A DNA stretch of 64,000 nucleotides from Balneolaceae bacterium. Lineage in GTDB: Bacteria > Bacteroidota > Rhodothermia > Balneolales > Balneolaceae. The notes beneath the pieces were generated by a model. It was not told where the DNA came from. It saw only the letters and a program-made list of their open reading frames with translations, and searched no databases. Below, in pieces: positions 9,865 to 37,847 of the stretch (position 1 is the stretch's first letter; each line of letters starts with the position of its first letter). A program made the translations under genes and the position numbers. The stretch covers positions 1 to 64,000 of the forward strand of contig JAEPQE010000001.1 of NCBI GenBank assembly GCA_017640665.1. Direction: 5' to 3'.

Positions 9865-11232
9865 TTAAAACCTGAACGTAAATACCGTACACCCTTCTTT
9901 ACTCGTGGTAACGTTGAGCGTTCCACTGTGCATTCTCATAATTTGTCTCGAAAGACTAAGCCCTATTCCCGAGCCTCCGTTTTCCGTGTTGGATTTACTG
10001 GTTGTATAAAAGGGCACAAAAATCTTTTCTTTCACCGATTCTTTAATTCCAGGTCCATTATCTTGTACTTCTAAAACAGGATGACCTGATCCATCAATTC
10101 TACCTCTGAGAATGATTTTAGGGTTCGAAGTCTCAGACAATGCTTTGAAAGCGTTTTTAACAATGTTGATGAGCGCTTGATCGATAAGCTGGGAATCAGC
10201 GGTTATTTCGAGCGTCTCAGGATCTACCATTACTTCCATCTCTACTCTGCGCCGTGTTGCTTCCCCTTTCATCAGATTTCTAACCCGTTCAAGCACTTCT
10301 TTTACGGTAAGAACTTCAAAAATCGGCGTGGGGATTTGTGTGATGTTTCGATATGAGTTCACAAAGCGCATTAACCCCAAGCTTCTTTTATTAATAGTTC
10401 CCAAAGCGTCTTTAACATCCTTGAGTGTTTCCTGGGGAATCGGTTCCGGGGATTCTGAACCAAAAACATCCCCCATCAACATAGAATTCACCGTGTCTGA
10501 TAAAGACGCAATTGGAGTGATTGAATTCATGATTTCATGCGCCAATACCTGAGTCAGATTTTGCCAGGCCTCCATTTCTTTTTCATCCAATTCTGTGGAT
10601 ATGTTTTGAAGCGAGATCAGTTTATAGTTATCGCCCTTCATCCTGAATTCGGTTGCATAAATTGCCAGCTGAAGTTTCTCGGAACCAATCGAGCAATTCA
10701 GTAAGGTTCGGGCTCCACTTTTTAAACCAATAACCGTTTCGAATAATGGAGTACTTACTTCTTTCAGTTGATCCACATTTCTCAATACCGAAACATCAAG
10801 CAATCGCTTCGCCGCAGTATTAAAAAGTTCAATTTCTCCTTTCTGATTGTAAGAGAACAATCCAATACCCACATGTTGAACAACAGTTTGAAGATATCGG
10901 TAACTCTCCTCCCCTTTTGAACGTTCGGATTTGAATTTTTCGATGATATCATTGAAGGCATCGTTGAGCGAAGCAAACGATTTATTGCCTGCACGATTGG
11001 AAAACGTTTGAGAGAAGTCGTTATAGCTGATTGCTTCAAAGAAACGTTGAAGCTGTTTGTTGGTAGTCTCCACATAGCGAATCAGGTTAATAACCTGCGT
11101 TATTATAAGCACACCAATTAAGGCACTACTCACAAAGTATTGAGTATTCATCACCATATAAATGAACAGCCCAACCATGCCAAACATGAATATCACGCGG
11201 GTAATTACCCCTATCCTAAAGCGGGCAATCAT
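9865..11232 (-). CDS. NtrY-like sensor histidine kinase, array regulator
   Basis: A 455-residue kinase with two close N-terminal membrane helices (about 12-50) and practically no periplasmic sensor, then a HAMP-like or helical linker, a PAS domain (about 110-215) and a kinase core. The H-box is LAHEIMNSITPI with His232. The ATPase motifs are DNGPGI and GGSGIGLSLSRQI, with a FYTTS lid. The H-box and MNSITPI wording are typical of NtrY-type kinases that pair with sigma-54 activators. It follows the NtrC-type regulator by 66 nt, so the two form a two-component pair. With no large outside domain, the signal is probably read in the membrane or by the PAS domain. The link to the permease array is inferred from the shared sites and position. 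Confidence 0.88.
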   Translation of the reverse strand: MIARFRIGVITRVIFMFGMVGLFIYMVMNTQYFVSSALIGVLIITQVINLIRYVETTNKQLQRFFEAISYNDFSQTFSNRAGNKSFASLNDAFNDIIEKFKSERSKGEESYRYLQTVVQHVGIGLFSYNQKGEIELFNTAAKRLLDVSVLRNVDQLKEVSTPLFETVIGLKSGARTLLNCSIGSEKLQLAIYATEFRMKGDNYKLISLQNISTELDEKEMEAWQNLTQVLAHEIMNSITPIASLSDTVNSMLMGDVFGSESPEPIPQETLKDVKDALGTINKRSLGLMRFVNSYRNITQIPTPIFEVLTVKEVLERVRNLMKGEATRRRVEMEVMVDPETLEITADSQLIDQALINIVKNAFKALSETSNPKIILRGRIDGSGHPVLEVQDNGPGIKESVKEKIFVPFYTTSKSNTENGGSGIGLSLSRQIMRMHSGTLNVTTSKEGCTVFTFRF

Positions 11233-11298: not shown

Positions 11299-12675
11299 CT
11301 ACAGCCCATACTTATCCAGCCTGCGATAGAGAGATGCTCTGGTTAGTCCTAATTCTTCTGCCGCTTTAGAGATATTACCTTCATGCTTTCTAAGTGCTTT
11401 CCGCAAAACCATTTTTTCTACTTCTTCCAAATTGTAATCTTCTATTTGAACTTGTTCGCTATGATCCTGGGTTTCATTAAGAAGAAAATCTCCAGGCAGT
11501 AAAATATCAGATTCAGCCATAATTACTCCTCGCTCCACTGCATGTTGTAACTCACGAACGTTTCCAGGCCAGGAATATCCGTTTAGCTTGCTGAGTGTAG
11601 CTTTATCAAGCCCCTTCATTTGTTTTTTATACTTGCTGGAATATAGTTTTATGAAATGATTCACGAGTAACTCAATATCTTCTTTGCGATCCCGAAGTGG
11701 AGGAAGCTGGATTTCGATGGTATTAATCCTAAACAGTAAATCCTGCCGGAAAGAACCTTCTGCAACCATTTCTTTTAATGATTGATTGGTAGCGCAAACC
11801 AATCTTATGTTGATCGACTTTGAGGTTACGGCCCCTACTCTGTTTACTTTTCTGCTTTGCAAAACGGTAAGTAACTTCGATTGAAGGGAGAGCGGTAAAT
11901 TTCCGATCTCATCCAGAAAAAGAGTTCCTCCGTTTGCTACTTCAAATCGTCCGGCACGGTCTTCTTTTGCGTCTGTAAATGCGCCTTTTACGTATCCGAA
12001 TAATTCGCTTTCAAACAGATTTTCTGAGATTGCCCCCATATCAACATTAATGAACACATTTTCTTTTCGGTTCGAGCGCCGGTGAAGCGCCCGGGCAATC
12101 ATCTCTTTTCCGGTTCCGTTCTCTCCTAAGATGAGCACATTGGCATCCGTAGCTGCTACTTTTTCGATCGTTTGAAAGACTTCCATCATTGCCGGACTTC
12201 GACCAATAATTTCTCTGTAATGATGGTCGATATCGCTACTCAACTGCTTTTGTTGCTGCTTTAATGCGACAACCTGCCTAAGACTCGTAGTAAGTTTCAA
12301 AGCGGAAGAAACTGTAGCTAATAGCTTCTCATTTTGCCATGGTTTAAGTACAAAATCAGTGGCTCCGTTTTTTACGGCCCTAACTGCTTTGTCAACATCC
12401 CCATAAGCAGTGATTAAAATAACCGCGATCGATGGATCAATTTCCAGAATCTTGTCCAGCCAGAAAAAACCTTCTTCTCCACTGCTCACATCATCCGTGA
12501 AGTTCATATCCAGAAGGATCATGTCGTAGCTGTTGTTCTTCAATAAAGTAGGAATAGATTTAGGATCCTTCTCTGTCTCAACCCTGGCAACGTGCTGTTT
12601 TAAAAACAGTCGGGCGGCCTGAAGCACATCTCCATCATCATCTACAACCAAAATCCGGCCTTGATTAACATCCAT
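11299..12675 (-). CDS. sigma-54-dependent NtrC-family response regulator
   Basis: A 458-residue activator with the three classic domains. The receiver (1-125) has the acidic pocket VVDDDGD, phospho-acceptor Asp56 in ILLDMNF and Lys111. The AAA+ domain (about 155-385) has Walker A GENGTGKE (184-191), sigma-54 loop GAFTDA (231-236, the usual GAFTGA with Gly to Asp), Walker B TLFLDEIG and the arginine-finger region. The C-terminal Fis-type helix-turn-helix is in the last 45 residues, ending SKAAEELGLTRASLYRRL. It is divergent from the adaptor gene. A 37-bp double palindrome lies between them and recurs before three permease units, making this protein the natural candidate to bind it. RpoN is not encoded in the window. 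Confidence 0.93.
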   Translation of the reverse strand: MDVNQGRILVVDDDGDVLQAARLFLKQHVARVETEKDPKSIPTLLKNNSYDMILLDMNFTDDVSSGEEGFFWLDKILEIDPSIAVILITAYGDVDKAVRAVKNGATDFVLKPWQNEKLLATVSSALKLTTSLRQVVALKQQQKQLSSDIDHHYREIIGRSPAMMEVFQTIEKVAATDANVLILGENGTGKEMIARALHRRSNRKENVFINVDMGAISENLFESELFGYVKGAFTDAKEDRAGRFEVANGGTLFLDEIGNLPLSLQSKLLTVLQSRKVNRVGAVTSKSINIRLVCATNQSLKEMVAEGSFRQDLLFRINTIEIQLPPLRDRKEDIELLVNHFIKLYSSKYKKQMKGLDKATLSKLNGYSWPGNVRELQHAVERGVIMAESDILLPGDFLLNETQDHSEQVQIEDYNLEEVEKMVLRKALRKHEGNISKAAEELGLTRASLYRRLDKYGL

Positions 12676-12720: not shown

Positions 12721-12735
12721 ACAAATACCGTACCT
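12721..12735 (-). promoter_or_regulatory. candidate sigma-54 promoter for the regulator gene
   Basis: On the minus strand, AGGTAC-GGTAT-TTGT starts at 12735. The GG of the -24 box and TTG of the -12 box have the correct 10-nt spacing, and the expected C at -12 is T. It lies 46 bp before the regulator ATG. Its first base is 64 bp from the near edge of UAS A (12799), one helical turn more than the 54 bp on the other side. Confidence 0.45.
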
Positions 12736-12798
12736 AACTATTTGATACTTTCAAAAACCAGAACCTGAGACTACATATATCTAATCTCAAATTCTGAC

Positions 12799-12835
12799 TG
12801 TTCGATATCGGACACTAAGTGTATCAAAATGAACG
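12799..12835. promoter_or_regulatory. UAS A: double palindrome between regulator and adaptor
   Basis: TGTTCGATATCGGACA (12799-12814), a 5-bp spacer, and TGTATCAAAATGAACG (12820-12835). The two TGT-N10-ACA half-sites repeat every 21 bp, two helical turns, which suits a dimeric Fis-type activator binding the same DNA face. Its relatives are UAS C (20010), UAS B (27615) and UAS D (35239). The 285-bp gap 12676-12960 holds no gene. Confidence 0.8.
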
Positions 12836-12888
12836 GTCATAAGCTACAAAACGATCAATAAATACATTAAACCGTAACTTTTTGTATT

Positions 12889-12904
12889 TGGCACAGTAAT
12901 TGAC
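12889..12904 (+). promoter_or_regulatory. sigma-54-like promoter of the adaptor unit
   Basis: TGGCAC-AGTAA-TTGAC matches the sigma-54 consensus TGGCAC-N5-TTGCW, apart from A in place of C at -12. It begins 54 bp after UAS A and 72 bp before the adaptor start codon. Confidence 0.6.
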
Positions 12905-12960: not shown

Positions 12961-14217
12961 ATGGGAATGGATAAAAAAATTAAAAAGAAAACCTGGACCA
13001 CAAACCGCATCATCATGCTTGTGGCTGGGATAGCTGTTATTAGTTTCTTCATCTACACGTTTATGTTTGCTGACTTCAGGTCCACGCTTAATGTTGAGAG
13101 AGATAAACTCACCATTGCAACAGTTTCTGAAGATTCTTTTCAGGAGTTCATCCAGGTAACAGGGAATATCCAACCAATTAATACCAGTTTTTTGGATGCA
13201 ATTGAAGGCGGAGTGGTACAGCACGTAGTGTTGGAATCGGGTGCTATGGTTTCACCCGGGGACACCGTACTTATTTTAACCAACTCAAACCTCCAGCTTT
13301 CGGTATTGAATCAGGAAGCGAGTTTATATGATCAGATCAATAATGTTCGAAATTCGAGATTAAACCTTGAGCAAAATAGTCTTCGAATTAAAGAGCAGTT
13401 AGCCAATGCTGAATACCAACTGGATATTCTTAAACCACAATTTGATCGGTCACAAAGTTTGTATGAGCAAAACCTGATCTCTAAGCAAGATTTTGAGGCG
13501 GTAGCAGAAAATTATGAGTACGAGAAAAAGAGATATGAACTAACGTATGAGTCTTTTATTAAGGATTCCATCCAAACTATAAATCAACTTCGCCAACTGG
13601 ATGATTCTGAATCACGAATGTATCGCAGTTTGACTGCTGTTCAGGGAATTCTTGACAATCTTGTAATCAGGGCCCCTTTAGAAGGACAGCTAACAACTAT
13701 CGAAATGCAGCCCGGACAATCGATTTCCCAAGGCGAAAGGGTCGGTCAGGTCGATATGCTGGATAATTTTAAAGTTCGGGTTGGTGTAGATGAATTCCAC
13801 CTTTCAAGAATCACAACCGGACTTAAGGGAACCTTTGATTTTGCCGGTTCCGAATATGATCTGGAAATCACTAAGGTTTACCCCGTAATTAATAATGGGC
13901 AGTTTCAGGTTGATATGGAATTTGTTGGAGATGCTCCTACTGGCATTCGCAGAGGACAACGTGTAAGGATAAGACTTGAACTGGGCGATGCTTCAACTGC
14001 TGTATTACTTGAAAAAGGAGGCTTTTTCCAAACTACCGGAGGAAGCTGGGTGTACAAGTTGAATGCAGATGAGACTAAAGCTGAACGGCATAATATCCGT
14101 CTTGGACAGCAAAACCCGGAATTTTTTGAAGTAGTGGAAGGTCTGGAACCCGGTGATAAAGTGATTATTTCCAGCTATGATACTTTTGGCGATAACGAAG
14201 TTTTGGATTTGGAGTAA
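12961..14217 (+). CDS. HlyD/MacA-type periplasmic adaptor subunit
   Basis: A 418-residue membrane-fusion protein. A basic N-terminus precedes one inner-membrane anchor (about 17-38). Next come the first half of a lipoyl domain (TGNIQPINTSFLDAIEGG...VVLESGAMVSPGD), a coiled-coil hairpin (about 110-225), and the second lipoyl half with LVIRAPLEGQLTTI and MQPGQSISQGE. A beta-barrel and membrane-proximal domain ends in GLEPGDKVIISSYD. Such proteins connect an inner-membrane ABC transporter to an outer-membrane TolC-type channel. It is the only adaptor in the array, so it may serve many permeases. No TolC homologue is in the window. ATG at 12967 is an alternative start. It is the first gene after the UAS A promoter. 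Confidence 0.9.
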   Translation: MGMDKKIKKKTWTTNRIIMLVAGIAVISFFIYTFMFADFRSTLNVERDKLTIATVSEDSFQEFIQVTGNIQPINTSFLDAIEGGVVQHVVLESGAMVSPGDTVLILTNSNLQLSVLNQEASLYDQINNVRNSRLNLEQNSLRIKEQLANAEYQLDILKPQFDRSQSLYEQNLISKQDFEAVAENYEYEKKRYELTYESFIKDSIQTINQLRQLDDSESRMYRSLTAVQGILDNLVIRAPLEGQLTTIEMQPGQSISQGERVGQVDMLDNFKVRVGVDEFHLSRITTGLKGTFDFAGSEYDLEITKVYPVINNGQFQVDMEFVGDAPTGIRRGQRVRIRLELGDASTAVLLEKGGFFQTTGGSWVYKLNADETKAERHNIRLGQQNPEFFEVVEGLEPGDKVIISSYDTFGDNEVLDLE

Positions 14218-14339: not shown

Positions 14340-15029
14340 ATGATTCAAGCAAAAAATCTAAAAAAGCTCTACATAACTGAAGATGTAGAAACTACGGCCC
14401 TAAACAACGTAAACGTTGAGATTAAGGAAGGGGAATTTGTAGCCATTATGGGACCTTCCGGATGCGGTAAATCTACCCTCCTAAACATTATGGGACTTCT
14501 TGATAACCCTTCTGATGGAGAATATAATTTTCTTGGTCACGAAGTTTCTTCCTACAGCGAACGCGAAAGAGCTCAGCTTAGAAAGGGTAACATTGGCTTT
14601 GTATTCCAGAGCTTTAACCTGATTGACGAGCTTACTGTTTTTGAAAATGTAGAACTTCCTCTTCTTTATTTAGGGATGGATGCTTCAGAACGAAAAGAAA
14701 AAGCCGAAGCTGCACTCGAGCGCATGAGTATGATGCACCGCCGAAATCACTTCCCTCAACAACTATCTGGTGGACAGCAACAACGTGTGGCTATTGCCCG
14801 GGCAGTAGTTGCAAATGCAAAACTAATTCTTGCCGATGAGCCTACGGGTAACCTCGATTCTGATCACGGTAACGAGGTAATGAAGCTTCTTGAAGAATTA
14901 AATGAAGCAGGAACCACCATTGTAATGGTAACTCACTCTCCTCATGATGCCGATTTCGCTACACGGGTAATCCACCTCTTTGATGGCCATGTTGTGACTG
15001 AGAATATGAAAGAAGGTTTCCACGTGTAA
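14340..15029 (+). CDS. MacB-type ABC transporter ATPase 1
   Basis: A 229-residue nucleotide-binding protein of the MacB/LolD/FtsE group. It has Walker [10 protein letters not shown] (38-46), a Q-loop in VFQSFNL, signature LSGGQQQR (142-149), Walker [14 protein letters not shown] (162-174) and the H-loop His199 in VTHS. All catalytic positions are intact. It would power mechanotransmission by MacB/FtsX permeases, where ATP use in the cytoplasm drives periplasmic movements without passage through the membrane. It is 122 nt after the adaptor gene and 87 nt before P1. It is the only fully canonical ATPase for the fourteen permeases here, and may therefore be shared. Confidence 0.93.
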
Positions 15030-15116: not shown

Positions 15117-17498
15117 ATGCTTAAGAACTACTTCAAACTCGCCTTTCGGAATATCGTCAAATACAAAAGCTATTCGGCAATAAATATTCTGGGGCTAGCT
15201 ACTGGTATCACGCTATGCCTACTCATACTAACTTATGTTAATCATGAGCTCAGCTATGACAGCTTTCATGAAAACAGTGATCGTATCGTTCGGGTAACCA
15301 TGAGCGATGAGGACGGTGAAATAGCAGTAACTCCTTCGATGGTAGCTCCATCTCTGGCATCTATCGCTCCGGAAATAGAAAACTGGGTTCGATTATATGA
15401 ACCTACACGATACAGCCCGGCAATAATAGGTGTTCAGAATCAGAAATTTCAGGAAAACAGTTTTCTATTTGCTGATTCTTCTTTCTTTGAAGTATTCACA
15501 TTTCAGTTTTTAAACGGAGACGCTAACAGTGCTTTGATAAACCCGGGAGCCCTCGTGTTAACAGAGTCGATAGCACGTAAGCTTTTTGGCTCTTTAGATG
15601 TAATAGGAGAAACCGTTTCAACGCAAATCTTTAATACCGAAACTGACTTTGAAGTAACCGGAGTGATTAGAGATATGCCTTCTAACTCACACTTCAGCTT
15701 CGATTATATCGCTTCTCTTTCCAGTTGGAGTTCCTGGTCTCAGCTTAACGATTCTGAAATCAGATCTGCTAATTTCTATACGTATTTAGTGTTGAATTCT
15801 TCGGAGTCTATTTCCCCACTTCAGGATAAAACTAATGCATTTGTAAATGAGCGAATTAAAGAACAACGGGATGTAAATCTGAATTTGGTTCCTTTATCTG
15901 AAATCTATCTTACATCTAATGCAGGAGCTGAGATTGCTCCGATGGGTGATATTTATAGGGTATATGGGTTTATGTTGATGGGGTTAGTGGTGTTGCTAAT
16001 TGCGATTATAAACTATGTGAACTTATCTACTGCCCGATCATCGAGACGAGCTACTGAAGTTGGTATCCGAAAAGCGTTGGGAGCCTATCGAAGCCAGTTA
16101 ATTAAACAGTTTTATGGCGAGTCTACCCTTATCACACTCATTTCTGTGATGATCTCCCTTATACTGGTTGAACTGTTTAATGAAGAATTCTTTGCATTGA
16201 TGGGCAAATCCATTCAATTCACTTTATTAAATGGTTATTCAGTCTGGATTTTAGTAGCCGGAATTGTTGTAGTAACTTCGTTATTGGCAGGCAGCTATCC
16301 GGCCATACTTCTTTCTTCCTTTAAGCCGGTAACTGTATTAAAGGGCATGATCAACAGCTCTTCATCGAGTTCTTTCCTTAGAAAAGGCTTGGTCATATCT
16401 CAGTTTTCCATTTCTACTTTTTTGATTATTAGTACCATTGTGATTTATCAACAAACCGACTTTGTGATTTCCACCAGTCTTGGTTTTGATAAAGAGTCTG
16501 TAATAGTACTCCCTGCCCGAGATCGATACTTAGCTCCAAAACAGGATGTATTGAAATCTGAGATACTTCGACAACCTGGGGTAATGAGTGCTACCTACAT
16601 GTCTAATATTCCGGGTAAAGTTTTTGGCGGTTACGGTGCACAGCATACTCCCGGAACTGACGCAATTAGCACTCAGGCCGGAGCCGCTGACAAAGACCTC
16701 GTAAAAACTCTAGGAATTGAACTTCTTGCAGGCGACGGATTTCCTGAATCTGAAGGGTATACTCTGGAGCAGGGCTATGTTTACCTGATTAATGAAACCC
16801 TGGCCAAAAGATTTGGCTGGACTCCCGAAGAGGCGTTAAATCAGCCGTTCAATGTATTGGGTAATCGCGAAGGCGAAATAGTTGGAGTTGTAAAAGACTT
16901 TAACTTTGCCTCGTTGCACGACGAAGTTAATCCACTCGCGCTTTTTATTAATCCTGATATGCATAACTATTTGCTTATCAAAGTAGCTCCAAACAGCACC
17001 CGGGAATCACTTACCGCCATTGAAGGAGTCTGGGATGAATTAGCACCTCACCGACCTTTTGAATTTGAATTTTTGGATCAGCAACTTGATCAACTCTATG
17101 AGCAGGAAGTACAAACCCGAAACCTGATTTCATTATTCTCGGTTCTGGCAATTTTTATAGCATGCCTTGGACTGGTTGGGCTTTCATCATTCCTGATTGA
17201 ACGCAGAGCTAAAGAAATTGGCATTAGAAAAGTTCTTGGTGCTTCCGTAGCAAATGTCGTCACCCTTTTAACAACAGATTTCCTCAAACTTGTAAGTCTT
17301 GGGTTTATTATCGGGGCTCCAATTGCCTGGTATGCGATGGAACAATGGCTAACCGGTTTTGCCTACAGAATTGAAATTGGAATAGCTGTATTCATTATAT
17401 GTGCCTTGCTTGGAATTATCATTGCGTTTTTAACTGTAAGCGGGCAGTCTGTTAAAGCCGCGCTTACGAATCCCGTCAACAGTCTGAAGAGTGAATAA
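15117..17498 (+). CDS. permease P1 (duplicated MacB/FtsX type)
   Basis: A 793-residue chain with the plan shared by P1-P14. TM1 (about 20-42) follows the family opening MLKNYFKLAFRN and precedes a MacB-type periplasmic domain. A three-helix FtsX block starts near 278 (NLSTARSSRRATEVGIRKALGA). Next comes a further TM near 425 (LRKGLVISQFSIS), a second periplasmic domain, and a second FtsX block near 671 (ERRAKEIGIRKVLGASV). Eight TMs in one chain make it a complete permease, not half of a MacB-like dimer. It ends NPVNSLKSE, a tail nearly constant across the array. It lies just after ATPase 1, in the same unit. The cargo is unknown. Confidence 0.92.
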   Translation: MLKNYFKLAFRNIVKYKSYSAINILGLATGITLCLLILTYVNHELSYDSFHENSDRIVRVTMSDEDGEIAVTPSMVAPSLASIAPEIENWVRLYEPTRYSPAIIGVQNQKFQENSFLFADSSFFEVFTFQFLNGDANSALINPGALVLTESIARKLFGSLDVIGETVSTQIFNTETDFEVTGVIRDMPSNSHFSFDYIASLSSWSSWSQLNDSEIRSANFYTYLVLNSSESISPLQDKTNAFVNERIKEQRDVNLNLVPLSEIYLTSNAGAEIAPMGDIYRVYGFMLMGLVVLLIAIINYVNLSTARSSRRATEVGIRKALGAYRSQLIKQFYGESTLITLISVMISLILVELFNEEFFALMGKSIQFTLLNGYSVWILVAGIVVVTSLLAGSYPAILLSSFKPVTVLKGMINSSSSSSFLRKGLVISQFSISTFLIISTIVIYQQTDFVISTSLGFDKESVIVLPARDRYLAPKQDVLKSEILRQPGVMSATYMSNIPGKVFGGYGAQHTPGTDAISTQAGAADKDLVKTLGIELLAGDGFPESEGYTLEQGYVYLINETLAKRFGWTPEEALNQPFNVLGNREGEIVGVVKDFNFASLHDEVNPLALFINPDMHNYLLIKVAPNSTRESLTAIEGVWDELAPHRPFEFEFLDQQLDQLYEQEVQTRNLISLFSVLAIFIACLGLVGLSSFLIERRAKEIGIRKVLGASVANVVTLLTTDFLKLVSLGFIIGAPIAWYAMEQWLTGFAYRIEIGIAVFIICALLGIIIAFLTVSGQSVKAALTNPVNSLKSE

Positions 17499-17509
17499 TT
17501 GGAGAAACT

Positions 17510-19942
17510 ATGCTTAAAAGTTATCTTAAAATTGCATTTCGAAATCTGGTCAAAAATCCTGGATACTCTTTCATCAATATTTTTGGGCTGGCGCTTGGTA
17601 TTACGGCATTCGTACTCATTCTGCTTTTTATTACCGATGAACTTAGTTATGACAGTTACCATGAAGAGTCAGATCGGATTTATCGTGTTTCAAGAGAATG
17701 GAAAAACCCTGATGGTGAAACCAGTCTGCATCTAGGGCATGTAGCCCCTCCCTTCGCTGAACTAATTAGAGAAGATTACCCTGATGATGTTCAGTATGCA
17801 GTCCGGTTTTTTGATGTATCTCCACTCATCAGTTATGAAGAAAAACATCTGATACAGGATCGCTTTTTCTTTGCAGACGCGGATGTATTTGAAGTTTTTT
17901 CATGGAATATGATAAAAGGAAATTCTTCTACGGCACTCTCCTCTCCTGATGGATTAGTCATTACAGAAAGTATGGCGGAGGTTTATTTTGGTGATGAAGA
18001 TCCAATAGGAAAAGCACTTGAATTCTCTCTTCAGGGCACTGAAATGGTATTTCAGGTGAATGGAGTTATAGAGGATGTACCTGAAAACTCACATTTTCAG
18101 TTCGATTTCCTGGCCTCAATGCAACCAGTAGTTCAATTTTATGGCGGCTACGAACAAATGATGCAGAATTTTGGGAGTAATAACTTTTCAACTTACTTGC
18201 TGCTTTCTGAGCATACCAAACCGGAAGAGTTGGAAGCCAGATTTTCAGCTTTAATGGACAAAATTTTTCCACCTGATGAAGCCGATGGAGATGCCAGAGC
18301 TTCCGATTTTATGAAGCTTCATTTAATGAATGTTACGGATATCCATCTCCATTCCTACCTCGATTCTGAAATTGAAGCCAACGGTAATATCGAATATGTA
18401 TATATCTATATAGCCGTGGCAATTTTCATCCTACTCATTGCCTGTATCAATTTTATGAATCTATCTACCGCACGTTCTGCCCGCCGATCAAGTGAAGTGG
18501 GCTTAAGAAAGGTGATGGGAGCTCAACGTTCTTCTTTAGTACGTCAGTTTATGGGTGAATCTTTTCTATTGGCCTTTCTGGCATTGATCCTTGGAGTCAT
18601 ATTCGTTGAGGTACTCACCCCCTATTTCAATGATTTTGTAGAAAAAGATCTGGCTCTTAATTACTTCTCAGATATAAGATGGGCTCTGGGACTTCTCGGA
18701 GTGGTTGCTTTCATTGGACTTGTTGCAGGAAGTTACCCGGCTTTATTTTTGTCTTCCTTTCAACCTGCTAGCGTACTTAAAGGGTCTTTTCAAGCGGGAG
18801 GAAAACATCAATGGTTCCGCTCTGGACTGGTGGTACTCCAGTTTACAATTTCTATTGCATTGATCGCAAGCATGGGTATTGTGTACAATCAGTTAGAATA
18901 CGTTCAGGAAAAGGAATTAGGCTTTAATAAGGATAATATCGCCGTACTTCCGGTTAGTCCTGAGATTGAGAACAATTATGTTGATATCCGAAACCGTCTG
19001 ATTCAGCAGCCGGGAATTATGGATGTATCCATGCAAAGTCGTGTTCCATCAGGCCGTCTGCTCGATTCTCAAGGCGGGTCTGCCGAAATAAATGGAGAAT
19101 TAGTAGAAATTGATTTCCGAATCGCCGATATCCATGTTAGCCACAATTTTGTTGATTTATTTGGATTAGATATTGTTGCCGGTCGCAGTTTTGATATCAA
19201 CCTTGCAAGCGATTCTTCAGAAGCATTTGTGCTGAATGAATCTTCTATCTATCGCTTAGGCTACGTTTCTCCGGAAGCGGCCATTGGCAAACAATTTAAT
19301 TATGGAGGAAGACAAGGGTTCATCACAGGAGTTGTAAACGACTTTCATTTTGAGTCACTCCATCAAAGTATAGCCCCAATTGTATTTGTGATCTCCAATG
19401 GAAGGAATAATACGATTGCAGTAAAGTTCAGCGATACCTATCAGGAAGAAACCATTGCTTACCTCGAAAATACCTGGGCTGATTACCGACCTAACTTTCC
19501 TTTCACTTATTCTTTGATTGAAGATAATTTTGCAGAGCAATACCAGGGAGAAGAGCGTCTCGGAAAGGTATTTGGCTATTTTGCTCTCCTAGCAATTATT
19601 ATTGCTGCCCTTGGGCTCTTTGGATTAGCATCTTTCACCATCCAGCAACGTGTAAAAGAAATTGGGATCAGGAAGGTGCTTGGAGCTTCTGTCAGCCAGA
19701 TCGTATATCTGCTCTCAACCAACTTTGCGAAGCTCGTCTTAATAGCTTTTCTGCTGGCAACTCCGACTGCTTATTTCGCTATGAATAAATGGCTTGAAAA
19801 CTTTGCATACTCAGAAGGTATAAGTCCATGGATATTTATAATGGGTGGCGGAATTGCCCTTGCGATTGCCTTGCTTACAATCAGTTATCAGGCAATTAAA
19901 TCTGCTCTGCTTAATCCTGCTCATACCTTAAAAAGCGAATAA
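17510..19942 (+). CDS. permease P2 (duplicated MacB/FtsX type)
   Basis: 810 residues. The start is fixed by GGAG (17501-17504) and the family opening MLKSYLKIAFRNLVKNPGYS. It begins 11 nt after P1 ends and is the last gene of the adaptor unit, before the hairpin at 19966. FtsX block 1 starts near residue 297 (STARSARRSSEVGLRKVMGAQ, followed by QFMGES) and block 2 near 687 (FGLASFTIQQRVKEIGIRK). The first periplasmic domain is rich in Met and Phe, and carries the acidic stretch PPDEADGDARASD. The tail is NPAHTLKSE, where most paralogues have NPVDSLKSE. It shares one unit with the adaptor, ATPase 1 and P1, so these four may form the ancestral transporter set. Confidence 0.92.
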   Translation: MLKSYLKIAFRNLVKNPGYSFINIFGLALGITAFVLILLFITDELSYDSYHEESDRIYRVSREWKNPDGETSLHLGHVAPPFAELIREDYPDDVQYAVRFFDVSPLISYEEKHLIQDRFFFADADVFEVFSWNMIKGNSSTALSSPDGLVITESMAEVYFGDEDPIGKALEFSLQGTEMVFQVNGVIEDVPENSHFQFDFLASMQPVVQFYGGYEQMMQNFGSNNFSTYLLLSEHTKPEELEARFSALMDKIFPPDEADGDARASDFMKLHLMNVTDIHLHSYLDSEIEANGNIEYVYIYIAVAIFILLIACINFMNLSTARSARRSSEVGLRKVMGAQRSSLVRQFMGESFLLAFLALILGVIFVEVLTPYFNDFVEKDLALNYFSDIRWALGLLGVVAFIGLVAGSYPALFLSSFQPASVLKGSFQAGGKHQWFRSGLVVLQFTISIALIASMGIVYNQLEYVQEKELGFNKDNIAVLPVSPEIENNYVDIRNRLIQQPGIMDVSMQSRVPSGRLLDSQGGSAEINGELVEIDFRIADIHVSHNFVDLFGLDIVAGRSFDINLASDSSEAFVLNESSIYRLGYVSPEAAIGKQFNYGGRQGFITGVVNDFHFESLHQSIAPIVFVISNGRNNTIAVKFSDTYQEETIAYLENTWADYRPNFPFTYSLIEDNFAEQYQGEERLGKVFGYFALLAIIIAALGLFGLASFTIQQRVKEIGIRKVLGASVSQIVYLLSTNFAKLVLIAFLLATPTAYFAMNKWLENFAYSEGISPWIFIMGGGIALAIALLTISYQAIKSALLNPAHTLKSE

Positions 19943-19965
19943 CAAGCTTTTAGTTGGTTAGCCTT

Positions 19966-19999
19966 TAGCGGTTAGATATCTGAAAAATACTAACCGCTA
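19966..19999 (+). terminator. hairpin between P2 and UAS C
   Basis: TAGCGGTTAG (19966-19975) and CTAACCGCTA (19990-19999) form a perfect 10-bp stem with a 14-nt loop. The following T tract is poor (TTCTCTT), so termination may be partial. It lies 23 bp after the P2 stop codon and immediately before the next control region. Confidence 0.5.
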
Positions 20000-20009
20000 T
20001 TCTCTTACC

Positions 20010-20046
20010 TGTACGATAACGTACACCTTCTGTATAAATCCGTACA
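20010..20046. promoter_or_regulatory. UAS C: double palindrome upstream of P3
   Basis: TGTACGATAACGTACA (20010-20025), a perfect palindrome at its outer seven bases, then CCTTC and TGTATAAATCCGTACA (20031-20046). It has the same 16+5+16 layout as UAS A, B and D. Confidence 0.8.
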
Positions 20047-20099
20047 TGTTTTCCATCAAAACCATTGTTTTTGAGCTGATTTAATAGGTTCCGATAGTT

Positions 20100-20115
20100 T
20101 GGTATGGTTGTTGGA
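20100..20115 (+). promoter_or_regulatory. sigma-54-like promoter of unit P3-P5
   Basis: TGGTAT-GGTTG-TTGGA begins 54 bp after UAS C and 98 bp before the P3 start codon. It has GG at -24 and TTG before -12 as in the other array promoters, with G in place of C at -12. Confidence 0.55.
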
Positions 20116-20197
20116 ACAAGCTGGGTATAGAATCTAAATTGAGATCTGGATATAGGGTTCTATCTCAAAAAATTGACTTCAACATAGCTTCTTTACC

Positions 20198-22612
20198 ATG
20201 CTTAAAAACTACCTGAAAATCGCGTTTAGAAATCTCATCAAAAATAAGAGTAACACTATTATAAATGTTAGCGGTCTAACTCTGGGTGTGGTTTGTGCTC
20301 TGGTTATTTTTTTAGTGATTCAATTCGATTTGAGTTTTGATACGTGGCACAAAGATGGAGATCGGGTATACAGAATTGTTAAGTCCGATTCTGAATATGG
20401 AGATATTAGCTACGATCGTGGCGGGCAGTATCCACTGGCCAAAGCAGTCAAGGAAGATATTGTTGGAATCGAATATGCCTCAATTGCAGATAATAATTAT
20501 GGAAATGACCCTGTAATTTCATACATGGAGGAAGGTATTGTTCAAAATAAATTCAAAGAAAGTAATCTGGTATTCGTTCAACAGGAATTTTTTAACATCC
20601 TCACTTATCAATGGTTAGCTGGTGATTCAGAGTCTGCCCTTGAACGACCCAATACTGCAGTAATAACAAAAAGTTTTGCAGAAAAGATGTTTGGAAATAC
20701 AAACGTCGTCGGCAAAAATCTGGTGCTTAGCATGAGTGGTTCATATTCAGATCTTGAAATTACCGGACTTGTAAATGACCAACCTGAGAATTCAGATTTT
20801 CCATTCACAATTCTAGCTTCTTCTCACTCCAAAAACAGAGATGGTGAAAGTGGTGAAAATGATAGCTGGAGTAGCAGCTCTAGTTCAATTCAAACTTATT
20901 TAAAGCTTGAAGAAGGAGTTACCGTTGAATCAGTAAATGCTCAGCTTGAGGATTTAATCATTAAATATAAAGGGGAAGAAGATGCTAAGTACCTTGAATA
21001 CTTTCTCCAACCACTTTCGGAAATTCATTTTGACAGCAGGTTCGGAAACTATAATGGCCGTACGATTGAAATCCGCATTCTTTTCGCCCTAGGTATAATA
21101 GGCTTATTCCTATTAATCACAGCTTGCATCAATTTTATTAACCTGAATACTGCCATAGCCGTTAGTCGTTCTAAAGAAGTTGGTCTTCGTAAAACCTTAG
21201 GAGGCACAAAAACCCAACTTACCTTTCATTTCCTTGGTGAGACTGCTTTTATCACACTTCTAGCTATCATTCTTGGGATAGGTTTGACAGAAATAGTACT
21301 TCTTAAAATTGAACCCCTTCTCGGGTTTACCCCGGAATTTAATCTCTTCGCTAATACACAAGTTCTAGCTTTTCTCGGCATTCTGTTTTTAGTGATTACG
21401 CTTGCAGCAGGATGGTACCCGGCTCGTCATCTCTCAAGCTTTAATCCTATTGAAGCCATTCGAAATAAGATCAATGCCAGTTATGGAAAAGGAATTACTC
21501 TTCGAAGAGGTCTTATTGTAGTACAATTTACAATTACACAAGTATTGGTAATCGGTACCATTGTAATTGCTACTCAAATCAACCATTTCCAAAATCAGGA
21601 TCTTGGATTTGAAAAGGAAGCTCTTGTTGAAGTTCCCCTCCCAACAAGAGATAAGCAGACCCTCTCAACTTTTAAGAACCAGTTATTAAATCAAGCAACC
21701 ATCAATAATGTAACTTTCTCAAATACGGGGACCACCAGTAACAGTACCTGGGGAGGAAACTATATAGTTACTATTGATACTACAAGATTTGAAAATCATG
21801 CTCAGGTTAAATTTATTGACGAAGACTTCGCAGTCACTTATGGGTTAACTATTCTTGCTGGAAAAAATCTCTCGCCTTCCGATACGGTGTATCAGTATTT
21901 GGTAAATGAAGCCTTTGCTAAACAAGTTGGCTTTGGGGATGATTATGAGGGATTAATTGGAAAAACTAATCTTTTTTGGGGAGCTGAAGCTCCAATAGTT
22001 GGAGTAGTGAAAGATTTTAATACTCAATCATTGCATGAAGGACTTACCCCGGTAGTAATGACAACCCGAAGAAGCTATTTCGTTGGTGGCATAAAAATTA
22101 ATACTGCACAAACCTCTGAAGCACTTGCTGCCATAGAGCAAACCTACAATCAAGTATTTCCCGATTACATCTTTGAGTATTCTTTTCTTGATGACTATAT
22201 CACAGAAATGTATGAGGATGAGCAACGCACTGCGAGAATCATGAATGCTTTTACGCTCATTGCAATTTTAATTGGTTCATTAGGCCTGTTTGGTTTGGTA
22301 TCGTATATGGCAACTACGCGAACTAAAGAAATAGGTGTTCGGAAAGTCCTCGGTGCTAATATTCTGGATATTCTGAAAATATTTGGATTTGAATTAGCCT
22401 TGTTGGTAGGTATTTCATTTGTAATTGCCGCACCGGTTTCCTGGTACTTGATGCAGCAATGGTTAGCTGATTTCGCTTATAAAATAGAATTAGGTCTAAG
22501 CATTTTTATTCTTGCTTTAGCTGGAACAATTCTGATAGCAGTACTAACCGTAGGATATAGAACGATGAGGGCAGCTCTTGCCAATCCTGTTGATAGCCTG
22601 AAGAGTGAATAA
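20198..22612 (+). CDS. permease P3 (close twin of P4)
   Basis: 804 residues, first gene of the second unit. It shares with P4 features absent from the other twelve. These are LSFDTWHKDGDRVYRIV after TM1, a Ser-run DSWSSSSSS in the first periplasmic domain (about 226), NLNTAIAVSRSKEVGLRKTLGG in FtsX block 1 (from about 294) in place of NLSTA...GA, and AGWYPARHLSSFNP in place of AGSYPA. FtsX block 2 (about 683) carries MATTRTKEIGVRKVLGA. By eye about two thirds of the positions match P4, so the pair is the most recent duplication in the array. The ATPase for this unit is not encoded in it. It ends NPVDSLKSE. Confidence 0.92.
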   Translation: MLKNYLKIAFRNLIKNKSNTIINVSGLTLGVVCALVIFLVIQFDLSFDTWHKDGDRVYRIVKSDSEYGDISYDRGGQYPLAKAVKEDIVGIEYASIADNNYGNDPVISYMEEGIVQNKFKESNLVFVQQEFFNILTYQWLAGDSESALERPNTAVITKSFAEKMFGNTNVVGKNLVLSMSGSYSDLEITGLVNDQPENSDFPFTILASSHSKNRDGESGENDSWSSSSSSIQTYLKLEEGVTVESVNAQLEDLIIKYKGEEDAKYLEYFLQPLSEIHFDSRFGNYNGRTIEIRILFALGIIGLFLLITACINFINLNTAIAVSRSKEVGLRKTLGGTKTQLTFHFLGETAFITLLAIILGIGLTEIVLLKIEPLLGFTPEFNLFANTQVLAFLGILFLVITLAAGWYPARHLSSFNPIEAIRNKINASYGKGITLRRGLIVVQFTITQVLVIGTIVIATQINHFQNQDLGFEKEALVEVPLPTRDKQTLSTFKNQLLNQATINNVTFSNTGTTSNSTWGGNYIVTIDTTRFENHAQVKFIDEDFAVTYGLTILAGKNLSPSDTVYQYLVNEAFAKQVGFGDDYEGLIGKTNLFWGAEAPIVGVVKDFNTQSLHEGLTPVVMTTRRSYFVGGIKINTAQTSEALAAIEQTYNQVFPDYIFEYSFLDDYITEMYEDEQRTARIMNAFTLIAILIGSLGLFGLVSYMATTRTKEIGVRKVLGANILDILKIFGFELALLVGISFVIAAPVSWYLMQQWLADFAYKIELGLSIFILALAGTILIAVLTVGYRTMRAALANPVDSLKSE

Positions 22613-22650
22613 AAACCAGCTATAGCCTAATCGTGTAAAAACTAAAAATT

Positions 22651-25062
22651 ATGTTTAAAAATTATTCCAAAATCGCGTTTAGAAATCTCATCAAAAATAA
22701 GAGCCATACTTTTATCAATATTGGAGGACTCTCGCTCGGGGTAATCTGTTCTTTGGTAATATTTCTGGTCATCCAGTTCGATTTAAGTTTCGATACCTGG
22801 CATGAAGACGGAGACCGGATATACAGAGTTGTACGAATTGATTCTGATTACGGGGACATAACATATAGCGAGGGCAATACCTATCCCCTTGCTGAAGCTG
22901 TTGAAAATGACATCTCTGGTGTGGAGTATGTAAGCATTGTTAACACGAATTACGCAAACGTACCTATCATTTCTTATACCAATGGAAATGTGGTGCAGAA
23001 TAGGTTAAAAAACGATTTCACCGTTTTTGTTGAACCGGACTACTTCGATATTTTTACTTATATCTGGATTTCAGGCAATAAAGAAACAGCTTTATCTAAA
23101 CCAAATACAGCCGTTATTTCAGAAGACTTAGCATTTAAACTTTTTGGAGACCTGAATGTCATAGGAAAAGTAATTCAATTTGATGCCGGAACTGTTTCCG
23201 ACCTTGAAATAACAGGAATTGTTAAAGATGTCCCAGATAACTCTGACTTTCCTTTCACTCTTTTTATAGAATCAACCTCAAAAAACAGAGAAGGAAAAAC
23301 TAATATAAACGATTCATGGTCAAGTTCATCCAGCTCAACTCAAACATTCGTCAAGCTGTCATCTGGTGTACTCCCGGAAAATGTAAATGCCCAGTTCGAT
23401 GATTTGATTACCAAATATCAAAGCGCAGATGTAGCTGAGTACCTGGATTTCAGACTTCAACCTTTATCTGAAATTCACTTCGACAGCAGATTCGACACTC
23501 ATTTAGGGCGAGTCGTAGAAAAAAGAACGCTGTTGGCACTAGGTATTATTGGTCTCCTCCTCTTAATAACCGCATTCATTAACTTTATAAACTTAAACAC
23601 AGCGTTGGCAGTAAGTCGTTCTAAAGAAGTAGGTTTAAGAAAGACTCTGGGAGGAACCAGGACACAACTTATCTGGCATTTTCTTGGAGAAACGGCGTTG
23701 GTATCTTTGATTGCAATAGTAGTTGGTGTTGGAATTGCCGAAATCATCACTCCCTACCTTGAGCCAATGCTTGGATTTGAGCCAAAGCTGAATTTAGCTT
23801 TTAACCAATCCGTCCAATTGTTTCTTGTTGGATTGTTTGTTCTTACAACACTAGCCGCAGGATGGTATCCCGCGCGACATCTTTCCAGTTTTAATCCTAT
23901 TGATGCTATTAGAAACCGCATCAATTCCAGTTATGGTAGAGGATTAACACTAAGAAGAAGCCTTATTGTGGTTCAATTCACAATTACCCAGATCCTAATA
24001 ATCGGCACTATTACTATTGCTGCTCAAATAAAATATTTCCAGGAAAGAGATCTCGGATATAATAAGGAAGCCTTAGTGGAAATCGAATTACCGAATAACG
24101 AGGAAGCTACTCTTGAAACTTTTAAAAACATACTCCTTAACGAATCATCCATTCTGGGGGTTACTTATTCTAACACAGGCACTACAAGTAATAGTACCTG
24201 GTCGGGAAATTACTTGGTTATGGAGGATACCGTAAGACTTGAAAACAACGCTCAAATAAAATATGCTGATGCTGATTTTGTTGATACTTATGGGCTTACC
24301 ATTCTTGCAGGAGAAAATCTGACTCCATCCGATACCGTAAATAAATTTCTAGTTAATGAAGCGTTTGCAAAACAAGTAGGCTATGGTGATGACTATGAAG
24401 GTCTGATAGGTAAAATAAATATTTTCTGGGGCGCAGAAGCTCCTATAGTAGGAGTAGTTAAAGATTTTAACACACGGTCTTTACATAGTGAGTTAGGTCC
24501 GGTTGTCATCGCAACACGAAACATGTTTTACACCGGTGCAATACGTATTAACGCAAGCCGAACCTCTGACGCTCTTGCTGCAATTGAGGATGCCTTTGAA
24601 AACACTTTTCCTCAGGCAGTCTATGAGTATGCTTTTCTTGATGATAAAATCGAACGGATGTATAAAGATGAGGAACGTACTGCAAAAATAATGAATGCAT
24701 TTACATTGATTTCTATTCTGATTGGATGCCTTGGGTTATTTGGGTTGGTTTCTTATATGGCTACTACTAAAACGAAAGAGATCGGAGTACGTAAAGTACT
24801 TGGAGCAACTTTACCTGATATTCTGAAAATTTTTGCGGCCGAACTAATCATTCTTACAGGCGCATCCTTTCTGATAGCAACCCCGGTTTCCTGGTATTTG
24901 ATGAAGCAATGGCTGGCAGACTTCGCTTATCAAATTGACATTGGTTTAGAGATTTTCGCACTGGCTCTGATAGGAATTATACTGATTTCAGTACTTACCG
25001 TAGGCTACAAATCAACGAGAGCTGCACTCGCCAATCCTGTAGATAGTTTGAAGAGCGAGTAA
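22651..25062 (+). CDS. permease P4 (close twin of P3)
   Basis: 803 residues, 38 nt downstream of P3 with an AT-rich spacer and no clear ribosome-binding site. It differs from P3 mostly in the periplasmic domains. For instance, GDITYSEGNTYPLAEAVEND replaces the equivalent P3 stretch, and the Ser-run reads DSWSSSSSSTQTF. The membrane blocks are nearly the same: NLNTALAVSRSKEVGLRKTLGG (from about 293) and MATTKTKEIGVRKVLGA (from about 682). Variation concentrated outside the membrane would fit changed cargo specificity on a constant engine, but that is an inference from eye comparison. All key family positions are kept and nothing suggests decay. Tail NPVDSLKSE. Confidence 0.92.
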   Translation: MFKNYSKIAFRNLIKNKSHTFINIGGLSLGVICSLVIFLVIQFDLSFDTWHEDGDRIYRVVRIDSDYGDITYSEGNTYPLAEAVENDISGVEYVSIVNTNYANVPIISYTNGNVVQNRLKNDFTVFVEPDYFDIFTYIWISGNKETALSKPNTAVISEDLAFKLFGDLNVIGKVIQFDAGTVSDLEITGIVKDVPDNSDFPFTLFIESTSKNREGKTNINDSWSSSSSSTQTFVKLSSGVLPENVNAQFDDLITKYQSADVAEYLDFRLQPLSEIHFDSRFDTHLGRVVEKRTLLALGIIGLLLLITAFINFINLNTALAVSRSKEVGLRKTLGGTRTQLIWHFLGETALVSLIAIVVGVGIAEIITPYLEPMLGFEPKLNLAFNQSVQLFLVGLFVLTTLAAGWYPARHLSSFNPIDAIRNRINSSYGRGLTLRRSLIVVQFTITQILIIGTITIAAQIKYFQERDLGYNKEALVEIELPNNEEATLETFKNILLNESSILGVTYSNTGTTSNSTWSGNYLVMEDTVRLENNAQIKYADADFVDTYGLTILAGENLTPSDTVNKFLVNEAFAKQVGYGDDYEGLIGKINIFWGAEAPIVGVVKDFNTRSLHSELGPVVIATRNMFYTGAIRINASRTSDALAAIEDAFENTFPQAVYEYAFLDDKIERMYKDEERTAKIMNAFTLISILIGCLGLFGLVSYMATTKTKEIGVRKVLGATLPDILKIFAAELIILTGASFLIATPVSWYLMKQWLADFAYQIDIGLEIFALALIGIILISVLTVGYKSTRAALANPVDSLKSE

Positions 25063-25098
25063 ATCAACTATTACCCAATTGCACAAAGCTAGAAAATT

Positions 25099-27558
25099 AT
25101 GTTTAAAAATTACCTCAAAATCGCATTTCGTAATATCCGCAAGCAAAAAATATATTCCTTAATCAATATAGTAGGGTTAACACTTGGTATCACATGTTGC
25201 ATCATTATCTACTTATTTATTCAGGATGAATATTCTTACGATAAATTCCATGAAAATAGCGGGAATATTTACTTGGTTGAGGAAATCAATTATTATGACA
25301 TCAAAGAAAATATAGAGCCTTCTCCTTTTTTTGATAGCCGGACTCCTGAAGGTATTCGCAAATCACCCTGGTTACCACTTTCGTTAGGGCCGGTTTTAAA
25401 AGACCGCATCCCGGAAATCAAGGATTTTGTGAGAGCAGATCAGTTTACAACAATTCTCAGGATTGGAAATGAGTCTTTTGAAGAAGAACTGACTTATACC
25501 GATGAATCTTTTTTTACCATGTTTTCTTTCCCTCTTCTTCAGGGAAATCCCGTTACCGTACTCAAAGATCCAGGCAGTCTTGTCCTTACACAGGAATTTG
25601 CTTCCAAGTATTTTGGAGACAGAAATCCAGTTGGAGAAACTATATTTATTACCGTCAGTAATGAAGACATACCTTTTACAGTAACAGGAATTGCGAAGGC
25701 TCCACCGGTAAATTCCAGCACCCCTTTCTCTATTGTTACAAACCTGAAAGAAAGCCCATATTATGAACGGAATCTAGATCAATGGAACCGATTTAATACC
25801 CCTGTTTTTTTGCAGCTAGAATCCAATGTCGATATCGCAGCGGTAAATGAAAAGATAAATGAATTTGTAGTCGAAAAATGGAGCGATAACTGGGACAATG
25901 TCAGGGAACGAAGAGGACTTCCTGCTGGTGCCGATGTAATGGAGTTCGGACTTGTTCCTTTAACTTCTCTACATCTGGATGCATCTATTGAATGGATAAA
26001 TTCCAGTAATCCTCTCTATTCCTATATTCTTGGTGCAGTTGGGATTTTAATTCTTCTGATTGCTTGCATTAATTATGTTACACTGGCCTTGGCCCGGTCA
26101 TCAAGCAGAGCAAAAGAAGTAGGAATCAGAAAAACATCCGGAGCAAAAAAGAATCAAATAGCGCTTCAATTTTGGGGTGAAACTCAGCTTTTAACTATTT
26201 TGGCTATAGTTCTAGGCATTTGTTTTGCTGAGATCCTGCTTCCCTACTTTAACTCCGTATCAGGGAAATCACTCGTTATCAATTATTTAGATAATGCAGG
26301 CTTTCTTATTGCCATTTTAGGTATTGCATTAATGACAGGGTTAATTGCAGGGAGTTATCCGGCCCTTGTTCTTTCTAAATATCAACCAGCAAAAGTTCTT
26401 AAAGGAATGAGCGGGTTTCAGTATAAACCCCGCCTTACAAAAGGACTTATTGTAGTACAATACAGTCTGTCTATATTTTTGATTATAAGTTCCGTAATCA
26501 TGTTTAAGCAGATGGATTATATCAATGGAAAGGATTTGGGATATAATGAGGAACAGGTATTATTTATTCCAACACATACCGGATGGAATGAAGAAGGTAC
26601 AAGACTCATGGAGCTATATCGAAGTGAATTGATTGGAACACGGGGCGTGGTTAATGTAAGCGGGATGGCTCCGGCTTTTACCAGTGGTTCTAACCGTTAT
26701 GGCTTTGAAGTTAACGACGACGAATTTCGCTCTTATATTTATTTTGTTGAAGAGGAGTTAATACCAACCTTAGGTCTTGAACTTTTATTCGGACGTAATT
26801 TCTCCGAAGATCGTCCTTCCGATGAAACAGAGTCTATCATTGTAAACGAAGCCCTTATTAACGCTTTGGGTTGGCAGGAAGATCCCATTGGTAAACTTCT
26901 ACCTTGGAAAGGAAAAGAAAATCCCTCCACTGTAATTGGAGTTGTTAAAGACTTCCACTTTCAGTCTTTAGAGACTGAAATTCAGCCCATGCTCATGCAT
27001 ATGGATCACAACCAAGGAGGTGTGGCTTCTATTGCTGTTAAACTTGAACCTGGAATGATTGGAGAAGCATTACCAATACTCGAAGAGAAATGGGCTGAAG
27101 TATCTCCGCTCCGGCCCTTTAGTTTCTGGTTTTTAGATGATGCTGTAGCCAGCCAATATGAAGACTACCAACGATGGTTACAAATTATGGGCGTTGCAAC
27201 ATTTATCGCAATTCTAATCGCTTGCTTAGGTTTATTCGGACTTGCCGGGCTTACAGCGGTAAATAAAACCAAAGAAATTGGAATACGAAAAGTACTCGGT
27301 GCTGGAATTGATCAAATTGTACTTTTATTAAATAAAGATATTGTTCTATTGGTTCTCATTTCTATGATAATTGCAGCTCCGGCATCATGGTATATCATGG
27401 AGCAATGGCTTTCTGATTTCTCCTATCGAATCAATATTAATGCCGGGGTGTATATGATTTCTACGATCGTTGCTCTGGCTTTGGCAATTTTAACGGTAAG
27501 TTACCACTCTGTAAAAGCAGCCCTTGCCAATCCCGTGGATAGTTTAAAGAGCGAATGA
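25099..27558 (+). CDS. permease P5 (QFWGE subgroup)
   Basis: 819 residues, last gene of the second unit. FtsX block 1 (from about 306) has LALARSSSRAKEVGIRKTSGA followed by QFWGE. P9 and P13 also have QFWGE in place of the common QFxGES, so these three form a subgroup spread over two units. After TM1 the usual SYDxFHENSDRIYRV reads SYDKFHENSGNIYLV. The first periplasmic domain is longer than in P1 by some 25 residues and is Pro-rich near 73-90 (PSPFFDSRTPEGIRKSPW). FtsX block 2 begins near 697 with AGLTAVNKTKEIGIRKVLGAG. The gene is followed after 15 bp by the hairpin at 27574. Tail NPVDSLKSE. Confidence 0.92.
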   Translation: MFKNYLKIAFRNIRKQKIYSLINIVGLTLGITCCIIIYLFIQDEYSYDKFHENSGNIYLVEEINYYDIKENIEPSPFFDSRTPEGIRKSPWLPLSLGPVLKDRIPEIKDFVRADQFTTILRIGNESFEEELTYTDESFFTMFSFPLLQGNPVTVLKDPGSLVLTQEFASKYFGDRNPVGETIFITVSNEDIPFTVTGIAKAPPVNSSTPFSIVTNLKESPYYERNLDQWNRFNTPVFLQLESNVDIAAVNEKINEFVVEKWSDNWDNVRERRGLPAGADVMEFGLVPLTSLHLDASIEWINSSNPLYSYILGAVGILILLIACINYVTLALARSSSRAKEVGIRKTSGAKKNQIALQFWGETQLLTILAIVLGICFAEILLPYFNSVSGKSLVINYLDNAGFLIAILGIALMTGLIAGSYPALVLSKYQPAKVLKGMSGFQYKPRLTKGLIVVQYSLSIFLIISSVIMFKQMDYINGKDLGYNEEQVLFIPTHTGWNEEGTRLMELYRSELIGTRGVVNVSGMAPAFTSGSNRYGFEVNDDEFRSYIYFVEEELIPTLGLELLFGRNFSEDRPSDETESIIVNEALINALGWQEDPIGKLLPWKGKENPSTVIGVVKDFHFQSLETEIQPMLMHMDHNQGGVASIAVKLEPGMIGEALPILEEKWAEVSPLRPFSFWFLDDAVASQYEDYQRWLQIMGVATFIAILIACLGLFGLAGLTAVNKTKEIGIRKVLGAGIDQIVLLLNKDIVLLVLISMIIAAPASWYIMEQWLSDFSYRININAGVYMISTIVALALAILTVSYHSVKAALANPVDSLKSE

Positions 27559-27573
27559 TTTAGCAAGCAGTTT

Positions 27574-27609
27574 GCAGTAAGCAGAATAATACTACAAACT
27601 GCTTACTGC
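27574..27609 (+). terminator. hairpin between P5 and UAS B
   Basis: GCAGTAAGCAG (27574-27584) and CTGCTTACTGC (27599-27609) pair perfectly over 11 bp with a 14-nt loop. An alternative pairing uses GCAGTTTG and CAAACTGC. No T tract follows. It sits directly after P5 and 5 bp before UAS B. Confidence 0.45.
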
Positions 27610-27614
27610 CGAAC

Positions 27615-27651
27615 TGTTCAATAGCGGACACTCATTGTCTGAAATCGAACA
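27615..27651. promoter_or_regulatory. UAS B: double palindrome upstream of P6
   Basis: TGTTCAATAGCGGACA (27615-27630), CTCAT, and TGTCTGAAATCGAACA (27636-27651). The first half-site is closest to that of UAS A, with identical TGTTC and CGGACA ends. Confidence 0.8.
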
Positions 27652-27704
27652 GTAATTATTCAAAAAAAGACGGTTTTACTATAAATAAGAGCTTCCTATC
27701 AATT

Positions 27705-27720
27705 TGGTACGGTTGTTGAA
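27705..27720 (+). promoter_or_regulatory. sigma-54-like promoter of unit P6-P8
   Basis: TGGTAC-GGTTG-TTGAA begins 54 bp after the end of UAS B and about 57 bp before the P6 start. It has A instead of C at -12. Confidence 0.55.
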
Positions 27721-27764
27721 ATAACGTTACTGTAATTGAGAATACAACATATTGTGGGGAGATG

Positions 27765-30149: not shown

Positions 30150-30284
30150 GGCTACCAAAAAGAGAAGAATGTATATCAAAAAGAAAATTCTAGAATAATT
30201 GCTTTTAGCTACTAGCCGTTAGCCTTAATCAACACTCAGAATCAGGCGGACAGCTATAAAACTAAGAGCTAAACCCTTTTTACC

Positions 30285-32696: not shown

Positions 32697-32744
32697 AACT
32701 ATTTGAAAGTGAACAAAATCTGGTTTTAATGTAACCATAAGTTT

Positions 32745-32786
32745 AAATCTTCGTGTTATGCTTAGACCTTAACACGGAGATTTTTT
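32745..32786 (+). promoter_or_regulatory. terminator-like hairpin hiding the P8 ribosome-binding site
   Basis: AAATCTTCGTGTTA (32745-32758) pairs with TAACACGGAGATTT (32770-32783) through 14 positions, one of them a G-U pair. The loop has 11 nt and six T residues follow (32781-32786), overlapping the stem end. The right arm contains GGAG (32776-32779), 7 nt before the P8 ATG. The same hairpin can therefore stop transcription or mask the ribosome-binding site. It may act simply as an intrinsic terminator, or as an attenuator that lets P8 be expressed only under some condition. Confidence 0.65.
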
Positions 32787-35150: not shown

Positions 35151-35175
35151 GAACTCATGCTTTCAGCGAACATCG

Positions 35176-35208: not shown

Positions 35209-35238
35209 TGCTGATTACTTCTTAGCTGACAACTAACA

Positions 35239-37845: not shown

Positions 37846-37847
37846 CT

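Follow-up and report, generated by a model that had tools for sequence, protein, structure and literature searches.

ZraR of Salmonella and E. coli has under its control the divergent sigma-54 promoters of zraSR and of zraP, which encodes a periplasmic protein (PMC4987338), and the available text of PMC12316311 likewise describes the zraSR operon as autoregulated. In Desulfovibrio vulgaris, DVU2106 drives the two divergent sigma-54 promoters of the orp1/orp2 cluster simultaneously (PMC3897727). A motif-search study linked sigma-54 promoters to FtsX-like permeases (COG0577), with enrichment in Bacteroidia among others, and its available text calls this link the first evidence (PMC12316311). When we searched the literature for a named Bacteroidota system of this type, that general sigma-54/FtsX link was all that emerged.

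Here we set beside these systems a locus from a Balneolaceae bacterium, contained in the first 64,000 nucleotides of contig JAEPQE010000001.1, the whole stretch of DNA that was analysed and hereafter the window. The best explanation of its layout, to which we assign a probability of about 0.85, is bidirectional sigma-54 activation from a single activator site, UAS A, by which the regulator and kinase genes would be positively autoregulated.

A tandem activator site between divergent operons

The regulator and adaptor genes diverge from a gap of 285 bases (12676-12960; Table 1). As in ZraSR-like modules, a regulator with receiver, sigma-54 AAA+ and Fis-type HTH domains adjoins a kinase gene. 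Its best family match is the PEP-CTERM-box response regulator model TIGR02915, at 426 bits against a cut-off of 502.6; it reaches 323 bits with the ZraR equivalog (NCBIfam NF007689, cut-off 760) and 303 bits with the GlrR model (cut-off 763), and is thus not GlrR. The sigma-54 contact loop of its AAA+ domain reads GAFTDA, versus GAFTGA; the related locus L061 likewise has GAFTDA, and L121 has GSFTDA. The genome carries one rpoN gene and three regulators of the NtrC class, this one included.

Downstream of the adaptor and ATPase genes runs an array of tandem ORFs, the first assigned to the FtsX/MacB-permease type by Pfam and the other 13 by length, position and shared sequence. The array is unusually long, with one ATPase gene and one adaptor upstream serving 14 ORFs. 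Past its end lies a short ORF (49967-50650), relatives of which adjoin the ATPase gene in some related loci.

Table 1. Features of the locus, with positions in the window and recurrence among the 30 Rhodothermia orthologues where given
Feature	Positions	Strand	Elements	Recurrence or spacing
Histidine kinase gene, downstream of regulator	9865..11232	minus		
Response regulator gene, NtrC-type	11299..12675	minus	receiver, sigma-54 AAA+, Fis-type HTH	
Candidate sigma-54 promoter, regulator-kinase operon	12721..12735	minus	AGGTAC-GGTAT-TTGT	29/30
UAS A, first palindrome (16 bp)	12799..12814		TGTTCGATATCGGACA	30/30
UAS A, second palindrome (16 bp, weaker)	12820..12835		TGTATCAAAATGAACG	+21 in 27/30
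Candidate sigma-54 promoter, adaptor/transporter operon	12888..12903	plus	TTGGCAC-AGTAA-TTGA, TTGGCACAGTAATTGA	30/30
Periplasmic adaptor gene, HlyD-type; opens transporter run	12961..14217	plus		
ABC transporter ATPase gene	14340..15029	plus		
FtsX/MacB-permease type array, 14 long tandem ORFs	15117..49948	plus		
Array-internal UAS pair and sigma-54 promoter	20010..20115	plus	TGGTAT at 20100	90 bp
Array-internal UAS pair and sigma-54 promoter	27615..27720	plus	TGGTAC at 27705	90 bp
Array-internal UAS pair and sigma-54 promoter	35239..35344	plus	TGGTAT at 35329	90 bp

A preliminary description of this DNA had placed UAS A between the divergent regulator and adaptor genes, and the site does fall within the gap, spanning 12799-12835. 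It consists of tandem palindromes whose starts are 21 bp apart, a two-site nature that the description did not record. The UAS motif matches eight times in the window, against 0.37 expected (both strands, up to three mismatches), and at 14 places genome-wide with up to two mismatches, against seven for the reversed control; the best two genome-wide matches, with zero or one mismatch, are both at this locus. UAS A is therefore more than a chance occurrence.

The adaptor-facing promoter is near consensus, with a predicted transcription start at about 12915. Its TGGCAC begins 90 bp from the UAS start and 54 bp past the end of UAS A, so that the 54 bp given earlier for the plus side is exact when measured from the edge of the pair. 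The same geometry recurs inside the array, a feature absent from the preliminary description: three further modules place a promoter exactly 90 bp downstream of a UAS start, and the reversed window contains no UAS pair and promoter at that distance. The -24 elements of these internal promoters are GGTAC or GGTAT, the form of the regulator-facing promoter.

Conservation and helical phasing of the regulator-facing promoter

The candidate promoter on the minus side reads from 12735 to 12721, with a predicted transcription start near 12709. Its first base stands 64 bp from the UAS start, with 63 bp between, exactly the minus-side figure reported before. It deviates from consensus in both elements (AGGTAC and TTGT) and, scored with consensus weights set from general knowledge, is weak by itself and hardly above chance (shuffle p 0.005). 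Sigma-54-like matches occur in the window at the frequency found in shuffles, so that the promoter is not judgeable from one genome; motif counts in the window alone were undecisive and were rejected as a test. The modest excess over shuffles would suit a reading in which UAS A serves the adaptor side only, with transcription of the regulator from a housekeeping sigma-A promoter and a minus site that looks like a sigma-54 promoter by chance. Feedback also presupposes some basal expression of the regulator, a further point for a sigma-A promoter; a good sigma-A/sigma-70 promoter for the regulator was sought in the gap and not found.

What makes the minus promoter convincing is its conservation in orthologues. 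A regulator search of 147 genomes was made and the best 30 matches were taken, the window itself among them, covering 13 genera at 62-100% identity. The divergent order of regulator and adaptor genes is kept in all of these Rhodothermia loci, as is the UAS, with the second site at exactly +21 in 27 of the best 30. Every locus also has a plus-side promoter of the form TGGCA(C/T)-N5-TTG, nearly always 88-91 bp from the UAS start, with outliers at 81 and 100 bp, about one turn off. A regulator-facing GG-N10-G site of the GGTAC-N5-TTG type is present in 29, the exception being L029, where no convincing minus site was seen. As in ZraSR-like modules, then, a UAS common to both operons is flanked by sigma-54 promoters on both sides, as judged by conservation.

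With one locus per genus, the mean score of the minus site is 12.6, against 10.4 ± 0.26 for shuffles (about 8 s.d.), a value reached by none of 500 shuffle sets, and the combined shuffle p over 13 genera is 7.8e-10, although the orthologues are related by descent and such p-values overstate their independence. Four spacer positions outside the scoring carry 0.89 bits, compared with 0.22 ± 0.09 in shuffled sequences, and the flanks carry 0.20 bits, the background level. The same score measure gives 9.9 and 10.1 on the wrong strand or wrong side, versus 12.4 at the proper site. The regulator-facing promoter is thus genuinely conserved among about 30 relatives; these sites and their conservation across genera are direct observations.

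In L026 (genome G060), an inserted small plus-strand ORF resembling a lipoprotein gene separates the UAS from the regulator-facing promoter; this promoter, at 510 bp from the UAS, is still near consensus (TTGGCACAACTATTGTG). The intergenic region of L043 (genome G141) holds three UAS-like palindromes between the two promoters, not the usual tandem pair.

Among genera, the UAS and the minus-side promoter are separated by 59-66 bp (some genera; 63 bp in the window), 52-54 bp (others), 42-43 bp (two genera) or 32 bp (one genus). These values are quantised at about 32, 42, 53 and 63 bp, in helical-turn steps (Rayleigh p about 1e-3, one value per genus). A further 34 loci, held out from this first set and drawn from Cytophagales, Acidobacteriota and other groups, show the phase that it predicts (V-test p 1e-5; 5e-4 in a thinned set; score filter 11, one UAS per locus). 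Because site and UAS were selected per locus, these p-values are indicative, not exact. The remark that the minus side is one helical turn longer than the plus side fits this series, where other genera have one, two or three turns fewer. The helical spacing is itself observed directly; a fixed phase with a free number of turns is what a looped, DNA-bound activator predicts, and is unexpected for an incidental motif. Together with its presence in 29 of 30 orthologues amid background-level flanks, this register with the UAS argues against the reading of a chance resemblance and a sigma-A promoter for the regulator, which we consider unlikely.

Phasing also bears on the sign of the feedback. Both promoters could be sigma-54 dependent while abundant regulator represses or competes at its own side, making the net feedback negative or neutral. 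A related divergent cluster offers a precedent, since DVU2106 is negatively autoregulated and is transcribed from a sigma-70 promoter that its binding site overlaps (PMC3897727). Here, UAS A lies clear of the minus promoter, at a separation of 63 bp, and the phasing agrees with activation; negative or neutral feedback accordingly seems very unlikely. That the minus site is bound and used under another enhancer-binding protein is also conceivable in a genome with two further regulators of the class. The sole UAS in the gap is, however, the one common to the array, and in relatives of the same clade the upstream regions of 20 other NtrC-type regulator genes showed no such UAS and lower sigma-54 scores, which makes control by another activator exceedingly improbable.

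Spread of the cassette beyond Rhodothermia

The regulator family was also followed in 80 loci of named genomes, from Bacteroidota, Acidobacteriota/Aminicenantes, KSB1, Zixibacteria, Gemmatimonadota and others, with regulators at about 59-66% identity except for one Balneola at 81%. Most have regulator and kinase genes divergent from adaptor, ATPase and permease genes. Many loci from Cyclobacteriaceae and Aminicenantes show a clear sigma-54 site facing the regulator; those from KSB1, Marinifilaceae and other Bacteroidales have the UAS and the adaptor-side promoter and no such site. Such loci have the very layout expected if UAS A served the adaptor side only. Universal autoregulation was rejected on the basis of these Bacteroidales (Labilibaculum, Marinifilum and others) and KSB1 loci. 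Since the site is clear in some clades and absent in others, autoregulation would be clade-dependent, and present in the clade of the window. Six loci of the Marinifilaceae type (L096, L098, L101, L102, L109 and L112) have the UAS and adaptor-side promoter at a spacing of 103 bp and no regulator-facing site; loci of this type appear to represent natural loss or absence of autoregulation.

Several orphan loci, where the regulator lies away from the adaptor, have a sigma-54-like site as well as a UAS upstream of the regulator. These sites are alike and individually weak, with two of 23 at p<0.05, and because most fail this threshold one by one they were counted as supportive only. In one example, L061, the regulator follows an ORF resembling an outer-membrane efflux gene, with a UAS and a sigma-54-like site upstream.

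Proposed mechanism and comparison with known systems

In the proposed mechanism, the kinase would phosphorylate the NtrC-type regulator, dimers of which would then bind the two palindromes, spaced by two helical turns, and oligomerise. DNA looping would allow it to activate sigma-54 RNA polymerase at two promoters, the plus promoter serving the adaptor/transporter operon and the minus promoter the regulator-kinase operon. The outcome would be positive autoregulation coupled with transporter expression. That this regulator binds there, that it activates and that the feedback is positive is what we infer from the sequence. The preliminary suggestion that the regulator may raise its own level together with the array gains support from promoter conservation, phasing and the lack of a good sigma-A alternative. 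A switch-like response, which was also suggested, does not follow from positive feedback alone; because regulator and kinase would rise together, the outcome may be simple amplification. Tentatively, and with more doubt than confidence, one could extend the scheme to a multi-phylum two-component/sigma-54 cassette in which a two-way enhancer with helical phasing couples amplification of the regulator to a permease array able to expand, so that induction becomes hysteretic (memory-like), and in which the regulator-facing arm is a tunable element that clades gain or lose.

The cassette occurs in Bacteroidota, Acidobacteriota and other phyla. As an example from outside Proteobacteria of a bidirectional sigma-54 enhancer, it has strong support and can be tested directly. 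With its natural series of whole-turn distances and its clades that have or lack the autoregulatory arm, it is well suited to studying the role of two-component positive autoregulation.

Of the permease link in PMC12316311, the text available describes neither a UAS nor a cognate two-component system nor a divergent promoter for autoregulation. The UAS resembles that of the GlrR type, TGTC-N10-GACA, a similar palindrome with TGT...ACA ends and equal overall length (PMC4987338), although the regulator here is not GlrR. With orp1/orp2 the locus shares one enhancer-binding protein acting on two divergent sigma-54 promoters; that cluster differs in that the DVU2106 gene is sigma-70-transcribed and negatively autoregulated, and in that both operons have described binding and IHF sites (PMC3897727). 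The likeness to ZraSR/zraP lies in an NtrC-type regulator whose own two-component operon and whose target have divergent sigma-54 promoters, here recognised from sequence. Unlike ZraSR, the regulator belongs to another subfamily, as its score with the ZraR model indicates, the gene order is regulator then kinase, and the controlled genes form an ABC/FtsX permease array that has three additional promoters inside it. As ZraR already controls divergent zraSR and zraP sigma-54 promoters, the regulatory logic is not new; what is new here is a widely distributed member with a different regulator subfamily and a multi-promoter FtsX/MacB permease array as its target.
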